Assembly (NCBI GenBank): GCA_018064605.1 | Contig: JAGHUX010000007.1 | Coordinates: forward strand, 1-64,000 | Source: Candidatus Limimorpha caballi | GTDB taxonomy: Bacteria > Bacteroidota > Bacteroidia > Bacteroidales > F082 | Length of the DNA: 64,000 nt | Reading direction: 5' to 3' | Shown here: positions 12,935-24,312 of the stretch, one piece after another | Layout of the letters: the number at the start of each line of letters is the position of its first letter | How positions within the stretch are numbered: position 1 is the stretch's first letter | Translations under genes and position numbers: made by a program | Notes under the pieces: generated by a model | The model's database searches: none | What the model was told of the DNA's origin: nothing | What the model saw: only the letters and a program-made list of their open reading frames with translations

Positions 12935-12995
12935 GTCCGATAAAAACTGAAAACGTCTGACCGAGACAACATAAACAGGGAGCAAAGACAAAAAA
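12935..12995. repeat. 61-bp dispersed repeat, copy A
   Basis: Starts GTCCGATAAAAACTGAA and ends GGAGCAAAGACAAAAAA. It matches copy B (14004-14064) at 53 of 61 positions without gaps. It lies just past the 3' end of the DUF6922-AbiEii pair, as copy B lies past the MNT-HEPN pair. Confidence 0.9.
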
Positions 12996-13018
12996 TAGTC
13001 AACTTGAATCAGGAAATG

Positions 13019-14003: not shown

Positions 14004-14064
14004 GTCCGATAAAAACTGAAGACGTTTAACAGAGACGACAGGAACAAGGAGCAAAGACAAAAAA
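14004..14064. repeat. 61-bp dispersed repeat, copy B
   Basis: Gap-free partner of copy A (12935-12995), 8 differences in 61. It lies between the end of the HEPN gene and the promoter of the DUF6922-AbiEii pair. Confidence 0.9.
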
Positions 14065-14101
14065 CTGTAAAACTAAATCATGAGATGACAAAAACAAATC
14101 A

Positions 14102-15173: not shown

Positions 15174-15776
15174 TCATTGTTCAATTGTCTCCTCAATTGT
15201 AACCTCTGATATCTTAAGTGAGTTTTTGCCCTCAATAATACATCCGAAAGTATTGTATTTCACTTCTTTGGAAATGGTAAAAACATCCATGTCATCAACT
15301 AAAAAGCTCAATTTTTTAGACTTTTTAATTAATTCGATTTTTACTTGTTTTTCCTTTCCTTTCTTTAGAATAATGGGGATTTTTTTACTTATACTCTCTT
15401 TTCCATTTCTACGATTTATTAAACGAGAATTCTTTTCTTGGACAATGAATTTACTGTAATTATTTTCATCTTCAAAATCAAATAAAATTCCAAACCAAGT
15501 TTCATCGTTTATCTTTTCTGGGCATAAGTTGAAAGTAATTTCAAAATTTCCTTCCGCATCTATTGGAAATTCAACCGAAGTCCAAACTATAAAATTTTCA
15601 TCCTTGTTTTCCAATAACAGGTAACCATCTCTAATACCGCATGAGTAGTTCTTTTCATAATACTCATCCCATTGGAAAGTGTTGTTTTCAAAATTTTCTT
15701 TAATGACTCTTTTTTCTTGTGCTTCTATCAAGTCACAAAATAAAAGGCAAACAACAATTGCTAATATTTTTTTCAT
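15174..15776 (-). CDS. Secreted protein, possible jelly-roll domain
   Basis: 200-aa protein with a signal peptide (MKKILAIVVCLLFCDLIEAQ). The rest is strand-rich: FENNTFQWDEYY, GYLLLENKDE, EGNFEITFNL, WFGILFDFEDENNYSKFIV, VKIELIKKSKKLSFLVDD and FGCIIEGKNSLKISEVTIEE. This pattern resembles the concanavalin-like/DUF1080 sandwich common in secreted Bacteroidota proteins. The function is unknown. Strongly AT-rich. It follows the next upstream gene (15789) by 12 bp, so the two likely share a transcript starting at the structured leader near 16889. Confidence 0.65.
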   Translation of the reverse strand: MKKILAIVVCLLFCDLIEAQEKRVIKENFENNTFQWDEYYEKNYSCGIRDGYLLLENKDENFIVWTSVEFPIDAEGNFEITFNLCPEKINDETWFGILFDFEDENNYSKFIVQEKNSRLINRRNGKESISKKIPIILKKGKEKQVKIELIKKSKKLSFLVDDMDVFTISKEVKYNTFGCIIEGKNSLKISEVTIEETIEQ

Positions 15777-15788
15777 ACGTTACAAAGA

Positions 15789-16475
15789 TTAAAAGTTACT
15801 CCCTAAAGATGTTTGTATTTCAGATATAAGTTGCTCATATTTTCTTAAAATTCTGTCATATTTTGAGAAGCATTGGTCGCTTGCTCCACAATCTTTATCT
15901 GCTATTTCAGAAGAAAGTTTTACATCATACGAAAGTTTGTCGCTGTCGGTGAATGCCAAACGAATTTCCAAACGAGTTCTTACTACTTGGTAGGCAAACG
16001 AAGTTCTATTCCATCCTGTTTTTATCCATCCTGCACTTTTGTCACGGACTTCTACATTCTCAAAATATCTTATAGCAATATTCATTAGACGTTTCCAAAC
16101 GATATCTTGGTCCATTCCATCCTTACAAGTAATTGTAAATGTTTTGTTTGCAACATCAACACCTTCGTCTCCACCGACAGAACTCAGCATCGCTTCATCT
16201 TCTGATAATGTGTAAGATACTGTCTTATTTGGATTGTTTTTGAACAATTTAACTGTTTTGGTAATATACCCTGGAGCTTCAAATTTTAAAATTACAAAGT
16301 CCTCATTCTTGCTGAATTTTATATCATAACTGCCATTTCCAACCTCTTGCCCATTATAGAAAATTTTGGCGTTCTCCGGAATAACAAAGACTTTCTTCCG
16401 TTGCGCAGAGGCAATATTTGGTATTGAAGTCAAAAAAAGTAAAGAAGTGAAAATCAATATCAATTTGTTTTTCAT
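15789..16475 (-). CDS. Secreted protein with PEGA-like N-terminus
   Basis: 228-aa exported protein; signal peptide ends at ASAQ (about residue 24). Residues 30-90 (IPENAKIFYNGQEVGNGSYDI...LKFEAPGYITKTV) look like a PEGA surface repeat. The C-terminal part (IVWKRLMNIAIRYFENVEVRDKSAGWIKTGW...) is mixed alpha/beta and resembles DUF4136/DUF4468-like modules, with two Cys residues (KDCGASDQC). The function is unknown. The start codon is the edge of a 357-bp repeat shared with the 18402-19154 gene and is preceded by structured-leader copy 1. Confidence 0.65.
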   Translation of the reverse strand: MKNKLILIFTSLLFLTSIPNIASAQRKKVFVIPENAKIFYNGQEVGNGSYDIKFSKNEDFVILKFEAPGYITKTVKLFKNNPNKTVSYTLSEDEAMLSSVGGDEGVDVANKTFTITCKDGMDQDIVWKRLMNIAIRYFENVEVRDKSAGWIKTGWNRTSFAYQVVRTRLEIRLAFTDSDKLSYDVKLSSEIADKDCGASDQCFSKYDRILRKYEQLISEIQTSLGSNF

Positions 16476-16829
16476 TAAACATTTTTGCCAGTTCTATCCC
16501 ATCGGCTCATCGGTTTTTTTTGTTAAATTAATTGAAATTAATTAGTGCCGAAGGTTTCGCTGTGAACTGCACACAAAAAAAGCGTGGCACTTTTTCGCCT
16601 TCATTGGAATCTTTGAGGTCTTCGACTACCTTTGACATTCCCAATTACAACGAGTAAAGCCCACGCCTGTTGGCGGGAGCGCCGTTGCTTTACTCCGGGA
16701 ATGTCATGTTTGAAAGTGTCGAAGTTTCAAAGATTCCAGTGCAAGCTACTTCGCTTTTTCCTATTCTATGATGTGCATACCGCTTAATGCGTCTATCTCA
16801 TAGGCCAAATGTTTGGTTAATAATCAGTT
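16473..16829. repeat. 357-bp duplication, copy 1
   Basis: Aligns without gaps to 19152-19508, 21 differences in 357 (94%). One edge is exactly the start codon of the secreted-protein gene. The other lies 52 bp beyond the outer helix and leaves the promoter outside the repeat. Confidence 0.95.
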
Positions 16830-16889
16830 ATAAGACTCCGTGATTATCAATATGATAATCTGTTTCGGATAAATCCCATAAGGATTTTT
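16476..16889 (-). ncRNA. Structured 5' leader RNA, copy 1
   Basis: Predicted leader from the -7 box at 16895-16902 to the start codon at 16475. The core is one long rod, pairing from outside in: 16568-16573/16772-16777, 16577-16584/16752-16759, 16587-16591/16738-16742, 16606-16616/16727-16737, 16620-16626/16718-16724, 16634-16642/16697-16705, 16652-16659/16688-16695, and a GC tip hairpin near 16661-16676. A short hairpin (ATCC/GGGAT) follows the predicted 5' end. Copy 2 carries compensating changes. The strand is inferred from the downstream gene and the promoter. No known class recognised. Confidence 0.75.
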
Positions 16890-16894
16890 CTGCG

Positions 16895-16902
16895 CAAAAA
16901 TA
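16895..16902 (-). promoter_or_regulatory. -7 promoter box of leader copy 1
   Basis: Minus strand TATTTTTG followed by CGC. It lies 118 nt before the outermost helix base at 16777, the same distance as in copy 3 (24305 to 24187). Confidence 0.65.
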
Positions 16903-17003
16903 CAAAAATTTAAATAAATATTCGCAAAAAGTGAATATTTGTTTTTTCGTGCAGAAGATCCACTATCCTGTTATCCCCGCACGCGGAGAAGTCATTATGA
17001 TTA

Positions 17004-18329
17004 TTATTCTTTCACCAGTTTGAAAAATACCGAAATCTCTTCTTGGTCTAAAATCATTCTGACATCGAATTCTTTTTCTTGAGGCAGGTATCCGTCTTTT
17101 TCGCAACGCAGGATTATTCTGACATTGCCGGCCGTCTGACGAGTCAAGCCGTTGATGTCTAATGATTTGGTTGACTCGTATGGTGTAGTTTGCATATAAT
17201 TGTTGTTCGTGCTTTTCACGTTAGGCGTTGTGCTGACGACTCTCCAAAACACATCAGCTCCTTGCGGTCTTGACTGTATGTCCCAACGAACAATGACATC
17301 TTTTAATGACTGCGTGTCTGCCGGGTTTTCGGCTTTTCCGGCAGCAACATGTCCGGTCGAATAGCTCGAATTATTGTAATTATTTTGGTTGTTGTGATTA
17401 TCTATATTGTAATTGCTACTATGGTCATTGTCATTGTTACTGCTTGTTTTGGTGAATGTCAATTCATCAAATAATTTTTGTGAATTGTCTTCGAACACGA
17501 ATGTGTTAATATCTCCGTATGGTTTTAAGACGATGTCTTTATATTCATATCCGTTTGGTTCAATGATCATGATGTTGGTGGCGTCTTCCGGTATTGTTTC
17601 AAAAAACAGCGAGTATTCCCATACGCCTTTGTTGATTGTTTTCCCGTTTTTTCCTGTCGCATCTATAATATTGATGTTTGATGTGTTTATCAACGAGTAT
17701 TGGCTGCCATTCGACACATCTTCGATATATGTCTGCCTTGAGATTCCGATTTGTTGGGATGGTTCTGTCACAACGATTTTCAAGGTGACTTTTGTGTAGG
17801 CTTCTCTGTTCTCTATCTTTGTGATGAATGTTCGGTTTTCTTTGTTGTCTCCATTTGCGTATGTCGATAATTCTTTTGTGTTGCCGAACAGCTCGTTTGC
17901 CAACGCCTCCGAGACTCCGACCAGTTCTCCGAGCGAGGATAATCTTGAATATTTTCTTGATGTCTTCCACACTCTTGAAGTTTTGATGTCCAACAATCTC
18001 GCGACAATATAATATTCGTCTCCGAATTTGGTGATTTCAGCCACACACACGTTGCTGGCACCATATTTCTTCCCTAAATCATATAGTTTGGCATCGTCGA
18101 TTTCGTAATTTTCACGTTCCTGCTCGACCTGTGACATGAAGTCGGCAGTGCGTTCGACGGCGATATAATCGTTGGCGTTGGTGATGGCAGACACCAATTC
18201 GCTGCCTAAAATGGTTTTGGTTTCGGGCGATATTCCTTCGGCAGATGTGACGTAAACCGCCACGGTTTTTTGGCTGAATGCCATCAGAGGCAACATTAGT
18301 CCGATTATGATTGCTGAGATTTTCTTCAT
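17004..18329 (-). CDS. Secreted CsgG/LpoB-like protein with shared C-terminal domain
   Basis: 441-aa exported protein (signal peptide ends MAFSQ). Residues 20-150 (KTVAVYVTSAEGISPETKTILGSELV...ASNVCVAEITKFGDEYYIVARLLDI) fit the CsgG/LpoB nucleotide-binding-like fold of periplasmic secretion or penicillin-binding-protein activators. A strand-rich middle and an Asn/Ser-rich linker (about 300-330) follow. The last about 100 residues (VRWDIQSRPQGADVFWRVVS...LDQEEISVFFKLVKE) are about 75% identical to the C-terminus of the upstream protein at 18402-19154. No lipobox. Role unknown; an envelope-stress or secretion-related function is possible. Confidence 0.7.
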   Translation of the reverse strand: MKKISAIIIGLMLPLMAFSQKTVAVYVTSAEGISPETKTILGSELVSAITNANDYIAVERTADFMSQVEQERENYEIDDAKLYDLGKKYGASNVCVAEITKFGDEYYIVARLLDIKTSRVWKTSRKYSRLSSLGELVGVSEALANELFGNTKELSTYANGDNKENRTFITKIENREAYTKVTLKIVVTEPSQQIGISRQTYIEDVSNGSQYSLINTSNINIIDATGKNGKTINKGVWEYSLFFETIPEDATNIMIIEPNGYEYKDIVLKPYGDINTFVFEDNSQKLFDELTFTKTSSNNDNDHSSNYNIDNHNNQNNYNNSSYSTGHVAAGKAENPADTQSLKDVIVRWDIQSRPQGADVFWRVVSTTPNVKSTNNNYMQTTPYESTKSLDINGLTRQTAGNVRIILRCEKDGYLPQEKEFDVRMILDQEEISVFFKLVKE

Positions 18330-18348
18330 GATATTAAATGAATAATAA

Positions 18349-18383
18349 GATGTTAAAGTGTGTCTTTAACACACTTTAACATC
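18349..18383 (-). terminator. Hairpin between the paralogous secreted genes
   Basis: Perfect 14-bp arms GATGTTAAAGTGTG / CACACTTTAACATC with a 7-nt loop, 19 nt after the stop at 18402. TTATTATTCATTT follows on the minus strand. Likely terminator or attenuator before the 17004-18329 gene. Confidence 0.7.
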
Positions 18384-18401
18384 ATAATACAACAATAGTT
18401 A

Positions 18402-19154
18402 CTATTCGCCTTCTTTTATAAGTCTGAAAAAAGCTGAAATTTCTTCCTGGTCTAAAACCATTCTGACATTAAATTCTTTTTCTTGTGGCATATAACCTTC
18501 TTTCTCGCAACGTATTATTATACTAACATTGCTGGCTGCTTCTGCTGTCAAACCCTTGATGTCCAAAGCTTTAGTTGCTTCGTAAGGTGTGGTCTGCAAA
18601 TATTTGTTGTTGGTGCTTTTTACTTCCGGTGTTCTACTCACCACGCGCCAGAATAAATCTGCACCTTGCGGACGTGACTGCACATCCCAACGGACAATTG
18701 CATTTTCCAAATCGGTATCACCATTCCCTTGAACAACTTTTTTCGGTTCCTCTTTCTTAGGTTCCTCTCTCTTAGGTTGATTATTCTTTGCCTGCATGAA
18801 AATTGTGACCGCTTTAGCATTGGGTTTGGTAATGGCACCAGAGATGCCATCAATAACATAGCCTGGAATTGAAAATAGGTTAAGCAGTGTGATTGGGTTA
18901 AATGTCTTGCTGATTTCTGCAGAACCATATTTATTCTCACTTTCCGCCACAATCTGTGATTTTTTGAATCCTCTACGAACTTTCACGTCAGTGGGACCCA
19001 TCACGTTAAAATAAGTTTGTTCCCCGTCAACTTTTAGGTTCACTGGTTCTCCTGCGTTTGTTGATACGGTCACCTTCGCTGTGGTCCCCGAAAAGATTGT
19101 TGCACAAGATGCCATCATCACTGACAACATCATAATTAATAGTAATTTTTTCAT
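18402..19154 (-). CDS. Exported protein with C-terminal domain shared with 17004-18329
   Basis: 250-aa protein. The N-terminus MKKLLLIMMLSVMMASCATIFSG has a lipobox (MASC), so a lipoprotein is expected. Residues 20-120 (TTAKVTVSTNAGEPVNLKVDGEQ...ISGAITKPNAKAVTIFMQ) resemble PEGA-like proteins of the CATIFSGT lipoprotein family. A Lys/Glu/Pro linker (about 128-140) leads to the shared C-terminal domain beginning IVRWDVQSRPQGADLFW. Function unknown. The gene is preceded by leader copy 2, which lacks its own promoter box, so transcription may continue from kbl and the epimerase gene. Confidence 0.7.
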   Translation of the reverse strand: MKKLLLIMMLSVMMASCATIFSGTTAKVTVSTNAGEPVNLKVDGEQTYFNVMGPTDVKVRRGFKKSQIVAESENKYGSAEISKTFNPITLLNLFSIPGYVIDGISGAITKPNAKAVTIFMQAKNNQPKREEPKKEEPKKVVQGNGDTDLENAIVRWDVQSRPQGADLFWRVVSRTPEVKSTNNKYLQTTPYEATKALDIKGLTAEAASNVSIIIRCEKEGYMPQEKEFNVRMVLDQEEISAFFRLIKEGE

Positions 19155-19508
19155 TAAACATTTTTGCCAGTTCTATCCCATCGGCTCATCGGTTTTTTTT
19201 GTTAAACTAATTGCAATTAATTAGTGCCGAAGGTCTCATTGTGATATGCACACAAAAAAAGCGTGGCACTTTTTCGCTTTCATCGGAACTTTTGAGGTCT
19301 TGGACTACCTTTGACATTCCCAATTACAACGAGTAAAGCCCACGCCTATTGGCGGGAGCGCCGTTGCTTTACTCTGGGAATGTCCTCTTTGAAAGTGTCC
19401 AAGTTTCAAAAGTTCCAGTGCAAGCTACTTCGCTTTTTCCTATTCTATGATGTGCATACTACTTAATGCGTCTATCTCATAGGCCAAATGTTTGGTTAAT
19501 AATCAGTT
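19152..19508. repeat. 357-bp duplication, copy 2
   Basis: Gap-free partner of 16473-16829. Begins exactly at the start codon of the CATIFSG lipoprotein gene. Confidence 0.95.
19155..19508 (-). ncRNA. Structured 5' leader RNA, copy 2
   Basis: Same helices as copy 1 at the same spacing. Differences from copy 1 include double compensation in the 11-bp helix (GGAATCTTTGA/TCAAAGATTCC becomes GGAACTTTTGA/TCAAAAGTTCC) and C-G to G-C in the next helix (CTTCGAC/GTCGAAG becomes CTTGGAC/GTCCAAG). The outer helix is extended to 8 bp (TATGCACA/TGTGCATA). The promoter and 5' hairpin of copies 1 and 3 are missing, because the duplicated block ends 11 bp from the upstream gene's stop. Confidence 0.75.
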
Positions 19509-19519
19509 TGTTATTTTTT

Positions 19520-20470
19520 TTACTTCAGCAGTTTCACCTTCAGCGTCTCAATCATATCGACGGTCATCTTGTCGAGGTCGTACTTCGGGTTCCAGCCCCA
19601 CTCGTTGCGTGCGCAGCTGTCGTCCATCTTGTTCGGCCACGAGTCGGCGATGGCCTGACGGATCGGGTCGAACTTGTACTCCATCTCGAAGTTCGGATAG
19701 TACTTCTTGATGGCGTTGTAGATGATTTCCGGGTCGAAGCTCATGCTCGTGACGTTGAACGAGTTGCGGTGGACGAGCTTTTTCGGGTCGGCCTCCATGA
19801 TGTTGACCATCGCGTCGAGAGCGTCAGGCATGTACATCATGTCCATGAACGTTCCTTTCGCTATCGGGCAGATGAACTTCTCGCCCTTGACGGCCGAATA
19901 ATAGATCTCGACGGCGTAATCCGTGGTGCCTCCGCCTGGAAGTGTCAGGTTGGAGATGAGTCCCGGGAATCTGACGGAACGTGTGTCAACGCCGAAACGC
20001 GTGAAGTAATAGTCGCTCAACAGCTCGCCTGTCACCTTTGTGACGCCGTAGATCGTGTTAGGACGCTGGATGGTGTCCTGAGGCGTGTTGTCGCGCGGTG
20101 TCGATGTGCCGAAAGCGCCGATTGACGACGGCGTGAACACGGCGCAGCCGAAGAGACGCGCCACCTCAAGGCAGTTCACGAGGCTGCCGATGCCGACGTT
20201 CCAGCCGAGCATCGGGTTCTTCTCCGCCGTGGCGGAAAGGATCGCCGCGAGGTTGTAGATGGTGTCGATGTTATATCTCTTCACCACTTCAGCGATCTGC
20301 ATGATCTGCGTCGAGTCGATGCGCTCGAACGGGCCGTTCTCGACGATTTCACCTGTCAAAGGGCGAAGGTCGCTGGCGACGACGTTCTCGTTGCCGTAAA
20401 CACCGCGGAGCTTCTTCACCAATTCTGTTCCGATCTGACCGCCGGAACCAACGATTAATATCTTCTTCAT
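19520..20470 (-). CDS. SDR-type L-threonine 3-dehydrogenase
   Basis: 316-aa NAD-dependent epimerase-fold protein from ATG 20470 (MKKILIVGSGGQIGTELV); the six-codon upstream extension is not family-like. It has a GxxGxxG Rossmann motif at 8-14 and the catalytic YGVTKVTGE (Tyr-x3-Lys). In this fold, proteins encoded beside kbl act as L-threonine 3-dehydrogenases, making 2-amino-3-ketobutyrate. The 48-bp gap to kbl, on the same strand, supports a two-step threonine-to-glycine pathway. Without that neighbour it would be called only an NAD-dependent epimerase. Confidence 0.85.
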   Translation of the reverse strand: MKKILIVGSGGQIGTELVKKLRGVYGNENVVASDLRPLTGEIVENGPFERIDSTQIMQIAEVVKRYNIDTIYNLAAILSATAEKNPMLGWNVGIGSLVNCLEVARLFGCAVFTPSSIGAFGTSTPRDNTPQDTIQRPNTIYGVTKVTGELLSDYYFTRFGVDTRSVRFPGLISNLTLPGGGTTDYAVEIYYSAVKGEKFICPIAKGTFMDMMYMPDALDAMVNIMEADPKKLVHRNSFNVTSMSFDPEIIYNAIKKYYPNFEMEYKFDPIRQAIADSWPNKMDDSCARNEWGWNPKYDLDKMTVDMIETLKVKLLK

Positions 20471-20518
20471 ATTGAAACGTGACCGCAATGCGGTTCTTTA
20501 AAATCTTTAAACTTTAAA

Positions 20519-21737: not shown

Positions 21738-21745
21738 CAAAAATA
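21738..21745 (-). promoter_or_regulatory. -7 promoter box of kbl
   Basis: Minus strand TATTTTTG followed by CGCC, 32 nt before the kbl start. Confidence 0.6.
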
Positions 21746-21839: not shown

Positions 21840-21874
21840 GGTACAAATTTTCGATTCAATGCTAAATTTGTACC
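21840..21874. repeat. Palindromic direct repeat, downstream of the DUF4143 ATPase
   Basis: GGTACAAATTT...AAATTTGTACC has 11-bp perfect arms. Its inner 32 bp (21843-21874) recur identically at 23058-23089, on the other side of the ATPase gene. It begins 3 bp past that gene's stop. Confidence 0.95.
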
Positions 21875-21877
21875 AAG

Positions 21878-23029
21878 TTATTCTATATCGTTTAATGTTA
21901 ATAAGTTACAATCGGACATTTGCAATGATTTGTCACCTGAATATATCACATTGCATTGTTCCGTTGTCGCCGATGACAAACTTGCCCAATAGCGTAAACC
22001 TTTGGTGAAGTCGGATGAAAACGTTTTTCCTGATTTGATTTCGTATGCGAATTGTCTGTCGCCGACGGTCTTTATCAAGTCTATTTCATGCCCTTTGCTG
22101 TCGCGCCAAAACGACAGGCCGGATTCTTCGCCTTGATTATACGCTTTTTTCAGGAACTGATTTATCACGTAATTTTCAAACAATCCGCCTCGGAGATAAT
22201 GATTTTCAAGTTGTTGTGGATTGCTAATTTCGAGGAGTGAACAGGCGAGACCTGTGTCGTGGAAATACAGTTTTGGCGATTTCACGAGTCTTTTTGAGAA
22301 ATTATTAAAATCAGGGCGAAGAACATAAACGATGTAGCTTGTCTCCAGTACACTCAGCCACGCTTGAGCCGTTGTGACGGCAATGCCGCAATCGTTGGCG
22401 AGCGAGGAAAAGTTGACAATTTGTCCGATTCGTCCTGCGCAAAATTTTATGAATTTCACAAACAACCCTAAATCGGAGATGTTTTTCAGTTGCCTGATGT
22501 CGCGTTCAACGTATGTCCTTATGTAGTAAGGGTAATATTCCGTCGGCAGCATTTTTTTGTCGTGAAGACGAGGGTATCCGCCTTCAAATATTTCCTCTTC
22601 GACTGTTTCTGCCAAGATGCCGCCATTAATCAATTCTTTTCTGGAGAAAGGCAGTAGCTCGAGAATCGCCACACGTCCCGCCAAAGACTGTGAGATTTGT
22701 TGCATCAATGAGAAATTCTGCGAGCCTGACAGGATGTACATCCCGTCTTTTCTATACATATCTACATGCGTTTGCAGGTAGGAAAAAAGACTTGGCACCA
22801 ACTGGGCTTCGTCGATTATCGTCTTGTCGGGGTGCGATGCCATGAAACCTCGCGGGTCGTCATTGGCAAACGCCCTTTGGTCCAAATCTTCCAATGAAAC
22901 GTATTGGTAGTCAGGGAATACGTGCTGCAGTAATGTCGATTTCCCCGATTGCCTTGGTCCTGTCAGCAACACAATGGGGTAGATCTCCATCATTCTGCGC
23001 AGCTTTGCGGTAATAAGTCGTTCTATCAT
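21878..23029 (-). CDS. AAA ATPase with DUF4143 (AAA_14 family)
   Basis: 383-aa protein. Walker A GPRQSGKST (about residues 24-32), Walker B KTIIDEAQL (about 70), sensor-type YILSGSQNFSLM, and a C-terminal DUF4143 with ISDLGLFVKFIKFCAGRIGQIVNFSSLAND and a nuclease-like HEIDLIKTVGDRQFAYEIKSG (D-x-E-x-K pattern). The family is very common in Bacteroidota and of unknown function, perhaps mobile or defence-related. It is exactly framed by 32-bp direct repeats, which overlap its promoter and its 3' end. Confidence 0.85.
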   Translation of the reverse strand: MIERLITAKLRRMMEIYPIVLLTGPRQSGKSTLLQHVFPDYQYVSLEDLDQRAFANDDPRGFMASHPDKTIIDEAQLVPSLFSYLQTHVDMYRKDGMYILSGSQNFSLMQQISQSLAGRVAILELLPFSRKELINGGILAETVEEEIFEGGYPRLHDKKMLPTEYYPYYIRTYVERDIRQLKNISDLGLFVKFIKFCAGRIGQIVNFSSLANDCGIAVTTAQAWLSVLETSYIVYVLRPDFNNFSKRLVKSPKLYFHDTGLACSLLEISNPQQLENHYLRGGLFENYVINQFLKKAYNQGEESGLSFWRDSKGHEIDLIKTVGDRQFAYEIKSGKTFSSDFTKGLRYWASLSSATTEQCNVIYSGDKSLQMSDCNLLTLNDIE

Positions 23030-23057: not shown

Positions 23058-23089
23058 ACAAATTTTCGATTCAATGCTAAATTTGTACC
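23058..23089. repeat. 32-bp direct repeat, upstream of the DUF4143 ATPase
   Basis: Identical to 21843-21874. The flanking arm is less perfect here, so the palindrome is shorter (CAAATTT...AAATTTG). Confidence 0.95.
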
Positions 23090-23351: not shown

Positions 23352-23894
23352 TTATTTATCTGTGTTGATTTTCACAACTTTAGCAGTGACTGTCGTTTTA
23401 TAGATTGTATTATCTCCCTGCTGTTCGATGCTTGTGTCCACAACAGGTGCTATGAGTGCGTCTCCGCCGGCAGCTCTGCATTGGTTTATTAGGCGATAGA
23501 AAGCGATATGGCGCGAGTAATACTCGGGATCCAAACTCAAAGACATGTTTTCGTGGTCATTTGACAGATAGCCGAAACATAAGACACCATCAATTTTATC
23601 AACCCAGAATGGCTCAAACCTCCGCCCTGTGTTGTAGTAAAAAGCAATTGAAAACTCTCCGTTTTGCTCTGAAATGTAACGGCGGTTATCATTTGTAGTT
23701 GGTCCTTTGTAAGCAATCACTGCTTCAGCAGTCACATTTTTCAGGATTGTGTAGTCGTTTCTTTTCAAGTTCAGTTCGTCAAAATCGACAGTGTTAACCG
23801 TGTTGTGTACCATAGGAACAACCTTTTTACTCACAACACACGAAGTCAGGAATGCTGCACTCAAAATAACAGCTAAGTAAACTAATTTTTTCAT
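23352..23894 (-). CDS. Uncharacterised lipoprotein
   Basis: 180-aa protein with a signal peptide and lipobox LTSC (Cys19), so an outer- or inner-membrane lipoprotein. The mature part has VDFDELNLKRNDYTILKNVTAEAVI, a variable middle, and QCRAAGGDALIAPVVDTSIE near the C-terminus. AGADALI-type motifs recur in small Bacteroidota lipoproteins of unknown role. It carries structured-leader copy 3 upstream, like the exported protein genes at 15789 and 18402. The 5' region of about 400 nt is unusually long for this genome. Confidence 0.7.
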   Translation of the reverse strand: MKKLVYLAVILSAAFLTSCVVSKKVVPMVHNTVNTVDFDELNLKRNDYTILKNVTAEAVIAYKGPTTNDNRRYISEQNGEFSIAFYYNTGRRFEPFWVDKIDGVLCFGYLSNDHENMSLSLDPEYYSRHIAFYRLINQCRAAGGDALIAPVVDTSIEQQGDNTIYKTTVTAKVVKINTDK

Positions 23895-24298
23895 TTTGAA
23901 CTAATTTTGTCTGTTTTTCTTACTCACTTGTCGGCTTTTCAGATACTCCGTATGCTCCGAAAAGGTAAAAAGCATATACACGAAAAAAGCGTGGAGCAAT
24001 TTAGCCGTATTTGACATTTTGAGGTCCTGAACTTACCTTAACGAATCAAATTACGCACAAATGCCCACGCAATCGCGTGAGCGTCAACAGGCATGTGCTT
24101 GATTCGTTAAACATTTGAAATTGTTCAGGTTCCAAAATGTCAAGTAATGCTTATAACGCTAATTTTCTATTTCATGGTGTGTATGCTGATACTCGTGTTT
24201 ATCTCATAGGCAAAACAATAGGACTTCTGTTTTCATCTATTCCACGCCGTACCTCTGAATTTCACGAAGTCCGTCAAACAAAATCCCGAGGGGAAACG
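23895..24298 (-). ncRNA. Structured 5' leader RNA, copy 3 (divergent)
   Basis: Same helix order as copies 1 and 2 with mostly different sequence: 23971-23981/24177-24187 (11 bp), 23988-23992/24156-24160, 24011-24021/24133-24143 (11 bp perfect), 24026-24032/24123-24129, 24039-24049/24099-24109 (11 bp), 24061-24065/24090-24094, and tip hairpin 24066-24070/24075-24079. Shared unpaired or tip blocks on the + strand are TTGAGGTC, TACCTT/TTACCTTA, GCCCACGC, GAGCG and TATCTCATAGG. A TCCC/GGGA hairpin follows the predicted 5' end, as in copy 1. Confidence 0.75.
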
Positions 24299-24304
24299 GC
24301 ACCG

Positions 24305-24312
24305 CAAAGTTA
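24305..24312 (-). promoter_or_regulatory. -7 promoter box of leader copy 3
   Basis: Minus strand TAACTTTG followed by CGG, 118 nt before the outermost helix base at 24187. Confidence 0.65.

Follow-up and report, generated by a model that had tools for sequence, protein, structure and literature searches.

What is encoded by two nearly identical blocks of 357 nucleotides (nt), each of which begins exactly at the start codon of a gene for an exported protein? The question is raised by a contig of Candidatus Limimorpha caballi (GCA_018064605.1, JAGHUX010000007.1; Bacteroidales), of which positions 1 to 64,000 were analysed and are referred to here as the window. An earlier note on this DNA had described the blocks, at 16473–16829 and 19152–19508, as copies of one rod-like RNA and had proposed either a 5' leader of secreted-protein genes or a small RNA (sRNA). 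From the comparative sequence analysis presented here, the blocks very likely represent a cis-acting leader RNA of a new class, which precedes mostly exported-protein and lipoprotein genes in Bacteroidales.

The two blocks proved to be as described. Their alignment is gapless over 357 columns with 21 differences, and each starts with the complement of a start codon, the ATG of an exported-protein gene on the minus strand (16475 and 19154), so the minus strand is the sense strand of the element and the element is a 5' leader. Six of the 21 differences make up three compensated pairs, as had been claimed: one helix holds a T-A to C-G and a C-G to T-A exchange, the next a C-G to G-C exchange. None of the 52 pairs tested is broken by any difference. 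Three or more pairs changed on both sides arose by chance in a fraction of 0.0003 of 20,000 random draws. The minus strand folds at −109.3 kcal/mol, and its shuffles average −78.8 (z −5.2). Since the plus strand is equally unusual (z −5.5), folding energy alone cannot settle the strand.

With the DNA sequence as the query, 33 of 100 related genomes gave matches, in two of 41 genera. The covariance model R1, built from 25 aligned copies with the window copies included, matched 87 of the 99 genomes searched within the genus. Samples of the order (393 genomes) and of the phylum (395 genomes) were searched with the same model and gave matches in 98 genomes (62 of 206 genera) and 28 genomes (12 of 171 genera), respectively; 26 of the matching genomes in the phylum sample belong to other orders of the class and scored more weakly (30–59 bits). 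The loci described here are the best matches listed, and many come from metagenome-assembled genomes, the form in which rod-bearing lineages are mostly seen. A pattern scan of named genomes returned at least 118 stretches, and R1 matched 77 of the 80 tested; the named genomes listed are nearly all Bacteroidales (Paludibacteraceae, Muribaculaceae, Lentimicrobiaceae, Salinivirgaceae, Dysgonamonadaceae, Barnesiella, Alistipes and others) and mostly metagenome-assembled, with one titled Synergistales.

In its own genome, five copies of the element are known, three in the window and two elsewhere. The count is five and not six because the sixth match is an antisense shadow of copy 3. The rod cores in the window all lie on the minus strand, copy 1 at 16600–16741 (R1 score 150.4 bits), copy 2 at 19279–19420 (152.9 bits) and copy 3 at 24006–24146 (82.7 bits). 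Both copies of the original description are real, and the description of a pair must give way to a family with homologues across the order. The third copy, a miniature open reading frame (mini-ORF), a start-proximal module and an alternative pairing are parts that the earlier note did not contain.

Covariation in homologues, which the note had named as a check on the structure, was seen in two alignments in comparison with shuffles. Among 25 sequences, 19 of 38 pairs changed on both sides, with 133 two-sided cells relative to a shuffle mean of 41.6. A wide alignment was assembled from 147 entries, some of them loci fetched twice, less six that had short flanks or were weak second hits; the remainder was thinned to 101 dissimilar rows, and copies 1 and 2 of the window brought the total to 103. 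The structure counted in this alignment, S1, is composed of an outer helix, a variable helix, hairpins A and B, a loop-loop helix and an apical hairpin. In S1, 93.2% of cells are paired, compared to at most 53.6% when slid, and two-sided change occurs in 26 of 40 pairs (15.8 in shuffles) and 353 cells (99.1 in shuffles).

The 5' strand of S1 carries UGAAA-CUUCGACAA-UUUCA and the 3' strand AGGU-AGUCGAAG-ACCU, each able to close a small hairpin, and the loops of these two hairpins are mutually complementary. The hairpins alone show two-sided change in six of eight pairs, relative to 0.8 in shuffles. The loop-loop helix is paired in 98.1% of cells, its most variable pair being CG in 73 rows, GC in 28 and AU in two. 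The helix adjoining the apex, counted in the 25 sequences only, is 94.7% paired with seven of ten pairs two-sided. The core has 11 invariant columns and many that are nearly invariant. A simple rod alone was rejected as incomplete, since hairpins A and B and a long-range pairing described below also covary. Some features speak against the fold as drawn. The outer apical stem is paired in 62–88% of rows as aligned and was excluded from the counted structure, hairpin A and the variable helix compete for one base, one pair of hairpin A is A-C in 15 of the 103 rows, and the rows are related while the shuffle and slide controls ignore the tree. Judged by the covariation, the fold is that of a real RNA, and all helices of S1 may form simultaneously.

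Of the 97 copies with flank, 56 have a match to the Bacteroidetes −7 promoter box (TAnnTTTG, the consensus given in passages of PMC9723704) at a distance of 60–160 nt upstream of the core. In 200 shuffles, in which bases were permuted within 50-nt blocks, the mean was 6.1 and the maximum 14, and the antisense pattern also gave 14. In the window, the exact box is present on the minus strand upstream of copy 1 (TATTTTTG, 16895–16902) and copy 3 (TAACTTTG, 24305–24312), identified by pattern match together with the enrichment in the family. The other 41 of the 97 copies lack an exact box, and so does copy 2, whose block starts 11 nt after an epimerase gene; both facts count against the leader reading. 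The nearest exact box upstream of copy 2 on the same strand is at 21738–21745, before kbl, and copy 2 may accordingly share a transcript with kbl-tdh. A sigma-70 scan gave nothing useful.

The genes that follow the rod were examined in 139 copies, of which ten had too little flank, four had no open reading frame (ORF) found and 125 had a next ORF. Some dependence exists among these copies, and the set includes a small number of loci twice, under two identifiers. Signal peptides were recognised by a home-made and generous hydrophobicity rule that 39% of background ORFs pass (background ORFs were of at least 120 amino acids (aa), next genes were allowed from 60 aa). By this rule, 111 of the 125 next genes are signal-peptide-like and 37 are lipoprotein-like, relative to 150 and 32 of the 381 background ORFs. 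At 50% identity the next genes form 101 clusters, 88 with a signal-like majority, and more loosely 74 families, 63 with such a majority; the clustering set totals 126 genes because copy 2 of the window is in it twice, and 111 of 125 is the figure to use. All five copies of the genome itself precede exported-protein genes, namely genes A and C, the lipoprotein gene after copy 3 and, by eye, a lipoprotein gene on contig C5 and a gene for a 717-aa protein on contig C19.

Two observations limit the link with export. Fourteen of the 125 next genes are not signal-like, and by eye about four of the next genes at nine class-level loci look exported, the others resembling response regulators or cytosolic proteins; the link is therefore demonstrated for the order alone. 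A common function of the next genes was considered and rejected, as no Pfam domain scores above cut-off in genes A, B, C or D of the window or in the gene after copy 3, and the next genes fall into 74 loose families among which no shared pathway is apparent and from which no ligand is suggested. With covariation, promoter box and gene context taken together, the proposal of a 5' leader of secreted-protein genes is supported, and the element is in all likelihood a cis-acting structured leader RNA at messenger RNA (mRNA) 5' ends.

Between the rod and the gene, a second conserved module is found in part of the family. In the genus and some others, module M2, with the pattern CCGAnG..GCC..AUGGGAUAnAAC..GGC, occurs at a nearly fixed distance before start codons. 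In the window it is located at 16487–16513 behind copy 1 (CCGATGAGCCGATGGGATAGAACTGGC; pseudoknot-like by eye) and at 19166–19192 behind copy 2, on the minus strand. The loci examined contain 53 unique instances, 50 of them with an ORF, and 48 of these 50 stand before a signal-like start; the start codon follows the AAC of the motif by 13–16 nt in 47 of 50. The reversed pattern, used as a control, gave no such instances. Pairing of GCCn with nGGC is visible by eye among the 53 instances, as an impression and not a controlled count, and a rough flag places 23 behind a rod and 30 not.

In other genera, Rfam matches to the DUF805b RNA (RF02914), a cis-regulatory RNA of 35 positions, occupy the place of M2. 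The DUF805b family covers the short start-proximal module and not the rod. M2 of the window appears by eye to be the same kind of small pseudoknot; a search of 16460–16900 with RF02914 at an E-value (E) of 10 gave no match. Behind copy 3, a DUF805b-like module was identified at 23919–23949 on the minus strand, a pattern match and not an Rfam match. Above the gathering score of 35.6 bits, DUF805b was found 74 nt after the rod of locus L124 (42 bits); behind the rods of L109 (27.3 bits) and L117 (22.5 bits) it scores below gathering. At E 0.001, DUF805b has 61 matches in 18 of 20 rod-bearing genomes, and in 12 genomes it exceeds the cut-off. At least ten of the 61 lie 53–98 nt after a rod, and many have no rod nearby, among the rod matches listed. 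DUF805b also occurs in clusters, four in 5.4 kb (G025:C19:2216-7609) and three in 2 kb (G000:C58:844-2854); there is no rod on the latter contig and, among the matches listed, none on the former. Of 98 dissimilar rods with flank, 10 are followed by M2, 13 by a DUF805b-like module and 21 by either, and both controls gave 0.

These modules bear on the sRNA proposed as the alternative to a leader. In this account the transcript would end or be cut at a conserved U-run, the rod would act elsewhere, and read-through would make the mRNA. A promoter box close upstream, a compact fold and the U-run itself would suit such a 5'-untranslated-region (UTR)-derived sRNA. The arrangement downstream does not: only four of the 129 copies with enough flank have no downstream ORF found, the distance from rod to gene is narrow (median 97 nt, interquartile range 81–121 nt), and start-proximal modules follow in the 21 of 98 rods given above. 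The sRNA is thus weaker than the leader as an explanation and is judged improbable.

How might such a leader act? Upstream of the rod, an AUG lies inside the conserved 5' block GCCUAUG, which is present in 64 of the 100 rows with enough flank, window copies included. In 63 of these 64 a stop codon follows in frame within five codons, relative to 21 and 30 of 64 in the other two frames; the single exception has nine codons between AUG and stop. One codon separates AUG and stop in 37 cases, four in 14, two in nine, none in two and five in one. With the two added window copies left aside, 61 of 62 bear a stop, relative to a shuffle mean of 26.8 and a maximum of 39, and every one of these stops is either UAA or UAG. 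Among the other AUGs of these stretches, 165 of 544 are followed by a stop within five codons. In the window, on the minus strand, the mini-ORF reads ATG AGA TAG in copy 1 (16793–16801, inside GCCTATG) and copy 2 (19472–19480), and ATG AGA TAA in copy 3 (24199–24207). The mini-ORF may be translated, and it provides the short ORF in the leader by which leader-peptide attenuators are recognised. The leader peptide of tetQ in Bacteroides, for its part, is reportedly 3 codons long.

A second clue is provided by a pairing that competes with S1. The apical GCGUGG (columns 260–265) is complementary to CCACGC (columns 358–363), which stands directly before the U-run; the run is at least five U long in 80 of 103 rows. 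In the window, on the minus strand, the apical GCGTGG is found at 16661–16666, 19340–19345 and 24065–24070 in copies 1 to 3, and the downstream partner with the U-run at 16575–16590 (GTGCCACGC followed by seven T), 19254–19269 (GTGCCACGC) and 23983–23996 (CTCCACGC). At least five of the six GCGUGG:CCACGC pairs are kept in 101 of 103 rows, and at least five of six apical-hairpin pairs in 97. The long-range pairing is 96.8% paired, with 65.3% for the best slide, and has 19 two-sided cells relative to 4.8 in shuffles. A conserved GCG in the outer helix is a further partner of the CGC in the CCACGC stretch. These pairings share bases: there are two conserved partners for CGUGGG and two for CGC.

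From this arrangement a two-state switch can be drawn. CGUGGG would pair either within the apical hairpin, with its 5' arm, or with CCACGC, and CGC with the U-run either with the outer helix or with GCGUGG. The state GCGUGG:CCACGC-UUUUUU would be OFF, being terminator-like or blocking, and the other states ON, with the choice made by a ribosome on the mini-ORF or by a bound factor. Such a reading must face several difficulties. Only two pairs of the long-range pairing show two-sided change, no excess over the 1.8 in shuffles, its loop of about 90 nt is long for an intrinsic terminator, and a terminator scan limited to loops of 3–8 flagged nothing on the sense strand. The conserved alternative partners are read here as a switch; another cause of their conservation is possible. 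A two-state switch through the GCGUGG, CCACGC and outer-helix pairings is accordingly put forward as a tentative proposal, at slightly less than even odds.

Were the element a riboswitch-type leader that binds a small molecule or a protein, the loop-loop core would be the sensor and the mini-ORF would play no part. The large and strongly conserved core with its invariant columns, the presence of alternative pairings and the 36 of 100 rows that keep the core without the mini-ORF block are all in keeping with this; the last also tells against the mini-ORF as a general component. Against a riboswitch stand the diversity of the next genes, in which no common pathway is apparent, and the in-frame stop in nearly every mini-ORF. 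It is plausible though not probable.

The preferred reading, a cis-acting leader with switch pairings between which a mini-ORF ribosome or a bound factor chooses, is considered moderately probable as a whole. A switch with a ribosome as its sensor would account most economically for the parts that are conserved. Taken by itself, the ribosome at the mini-ORF as sensor is somewhat unlikely. In its most specific form, the proposal is of a translation-state sensor dedicated to surface and secreted proteins: by occupying a minimal ORF, usually Met-X-stop and with zero to five codons between AUG and stop, a ribosome would set the loop-loop pseudoknotted fold and so gate a set of exported-protein genes. 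This form is fairly unlikely.

A simpler function would be that of an mRNA protector or processing site, in which a 5' rod sets the half-life of exported-protein mRNAs with no sensing at all. Its position close to the promoter box, a very stable fold and the diverse cargo would all be accommodated. The conservation of loops, the mini-ORF stop and the alternative pairing exceed what stability needs, and this explanation is also unlikely.

The covariation could in principle arise in DNA. When G-U is compared to A-C, which is how a G-U pair reads on the opposite strand, an excess of G-U is present in the apical helix (142/10), the long-range pairing (31/3), the outer helix (46/21) and hairpin B (9/0). 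The variable helix (32/27), the loop-loop helix (1/2) and hairpin A (16/16) have no such excess, a point that detracts from an RNA since the pattern of these three helices would also be given by DNA-level palindrome repair. In this alternative the element would be a folded recombination site or a non-autonomous mobile repeat that moves exported-protein genes, its covariation resulting from palindrome repair or folding of single-stranded DNA. In its favour is the site downstream of tdh. A common locus was rejected, as the exact rod motif occurs within 600 bp of tdh in seven and not in five of 12 tdh regions (themselves drawn from regions chosen for rod or M2 matches); the first genes after the seven rods form four unrelated groups, four of the seven sharing at least a C-terminal stretch and three matching none. 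Against a DNA element are the G-U excess in the other helices, the R1 score of about 150 bits in sense compared to 35 in antisense, the promoter box and mini-ORF frame, the wide taxonomic spread and the lack of any plasmid or phage record matching copy 1 as a blastn query at E 1e-5. The gene A protein had no relative in viral_contigs, and no recombinase was recognised by eye among the ORFs of 18 of 20 regions, in which no systematic search was made. A DNA element is considered highly unlikely.

The kbl-tdh site is a variable hotspot in its own right, seen in the window (19500–20500) and at L037–L039, L046, L049, L053, L056, L063, L068, L070 and L073. Close genomes differ after tdh, with either a rod and different exported genes or first a gene that by eye resembles a nucleotidyltransferase. 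The first genes at this site in the window, L070, L053 and L056 have about 100–127 aa in common at 69–86% identity; longer alignments are found only for L070 with L053 (52%, 306 aa) and the window with L070 (53%, 210 aa).

The genes served by the window copies lie on the minus strand. Copy 1 precedes gene A (15789–16475), which encodes an exported protein of 228 aa with no Pfam match and is followed by gene B (15174–15776), a second exported-protein gene for which Pfam gives only a weak, sub-threshold match to DUF1961. Copy 2 precedes gene C (18402–19154; lipoprotein-like, 250 aa, no Pfam match), and copy 3 a lipoprotein-like gene of 180 aa (23352–23894) with a weak DUF6567 match below cut-off. 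Genes D and C have a C-terminal stretch in common (17007–17302 and 18411–18706, 76% identical DNA), and a palindrome, GATGTTAAAGTGTG...CACACTTTAACATC, was noticed by eye between them at about 18347–18382. Elsewhere in the window, identical 32-bp direct repeats (21843–21874 and 23058–23089), also partly complementary to each other, surround an AAA_14-DUF4143 ATPase gene (21878–23029), and an 84-bp repeat (12935–13018 and 14004–14087, 81% identical) lies among HTH, HEPN and nucleotidyltransferase genes.

If the leader reading is correct, one fold before many unrelated exported-protein genes would define, for an order of gut bacteria, a regulon of surface proteins that is controlled after transcription. 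The earlier note had recognised no known riboswitch or RNA class in the rod, and this is borne out by Rfam 15. At gathering score the window contains only three transfer RNAs; searched by itself at E 10, the element has just two small nucleolar RNA matches, both below threshold; and neither the 20 order loci at E 1 nor the nine class-level loci at E 5 have any match over the rod. A long hairpin at one homologue locus (L126:2029-2147) scores below gathering, on either strand, with a microRNA model from plants and is probably no more than a strong inverted repeat.

Literature searches returned no paper naming this RNA; the supplementary tables of PMC8040213 were outside the search, so overlap is possible. 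Passages of that paper (Fremin and Bhatt 2021) describe a large-scale search with cis-acting and palindromic RNA candidates, some from Bacteroidetes, and the examples given there are 38–132 bp long. Flavo-1 is described in parts of PMC9723704 as a computed motif of unknown function that is widespread in Flavobacteriaceae; the Rfam searches gave no match to it in the window, the 20 order loci or the nine class-level loci. The tetQ leader of Bacteroides (Wang et al. 2005), listed in a section of PMC5418344 as an attenuator controlling translation, is likewise a Bacteroidetes leader; it stands before a different gene, and the likeness drawn here is one of description. With a length of some 300–400 nt, as suggested by the promoter box, the putative leader would be unusual beside the median 5' UTRs of 24 and 32 bp that are given for F. 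psychrophilum and B. thetaiotaomicron in passages of PMC9723704.

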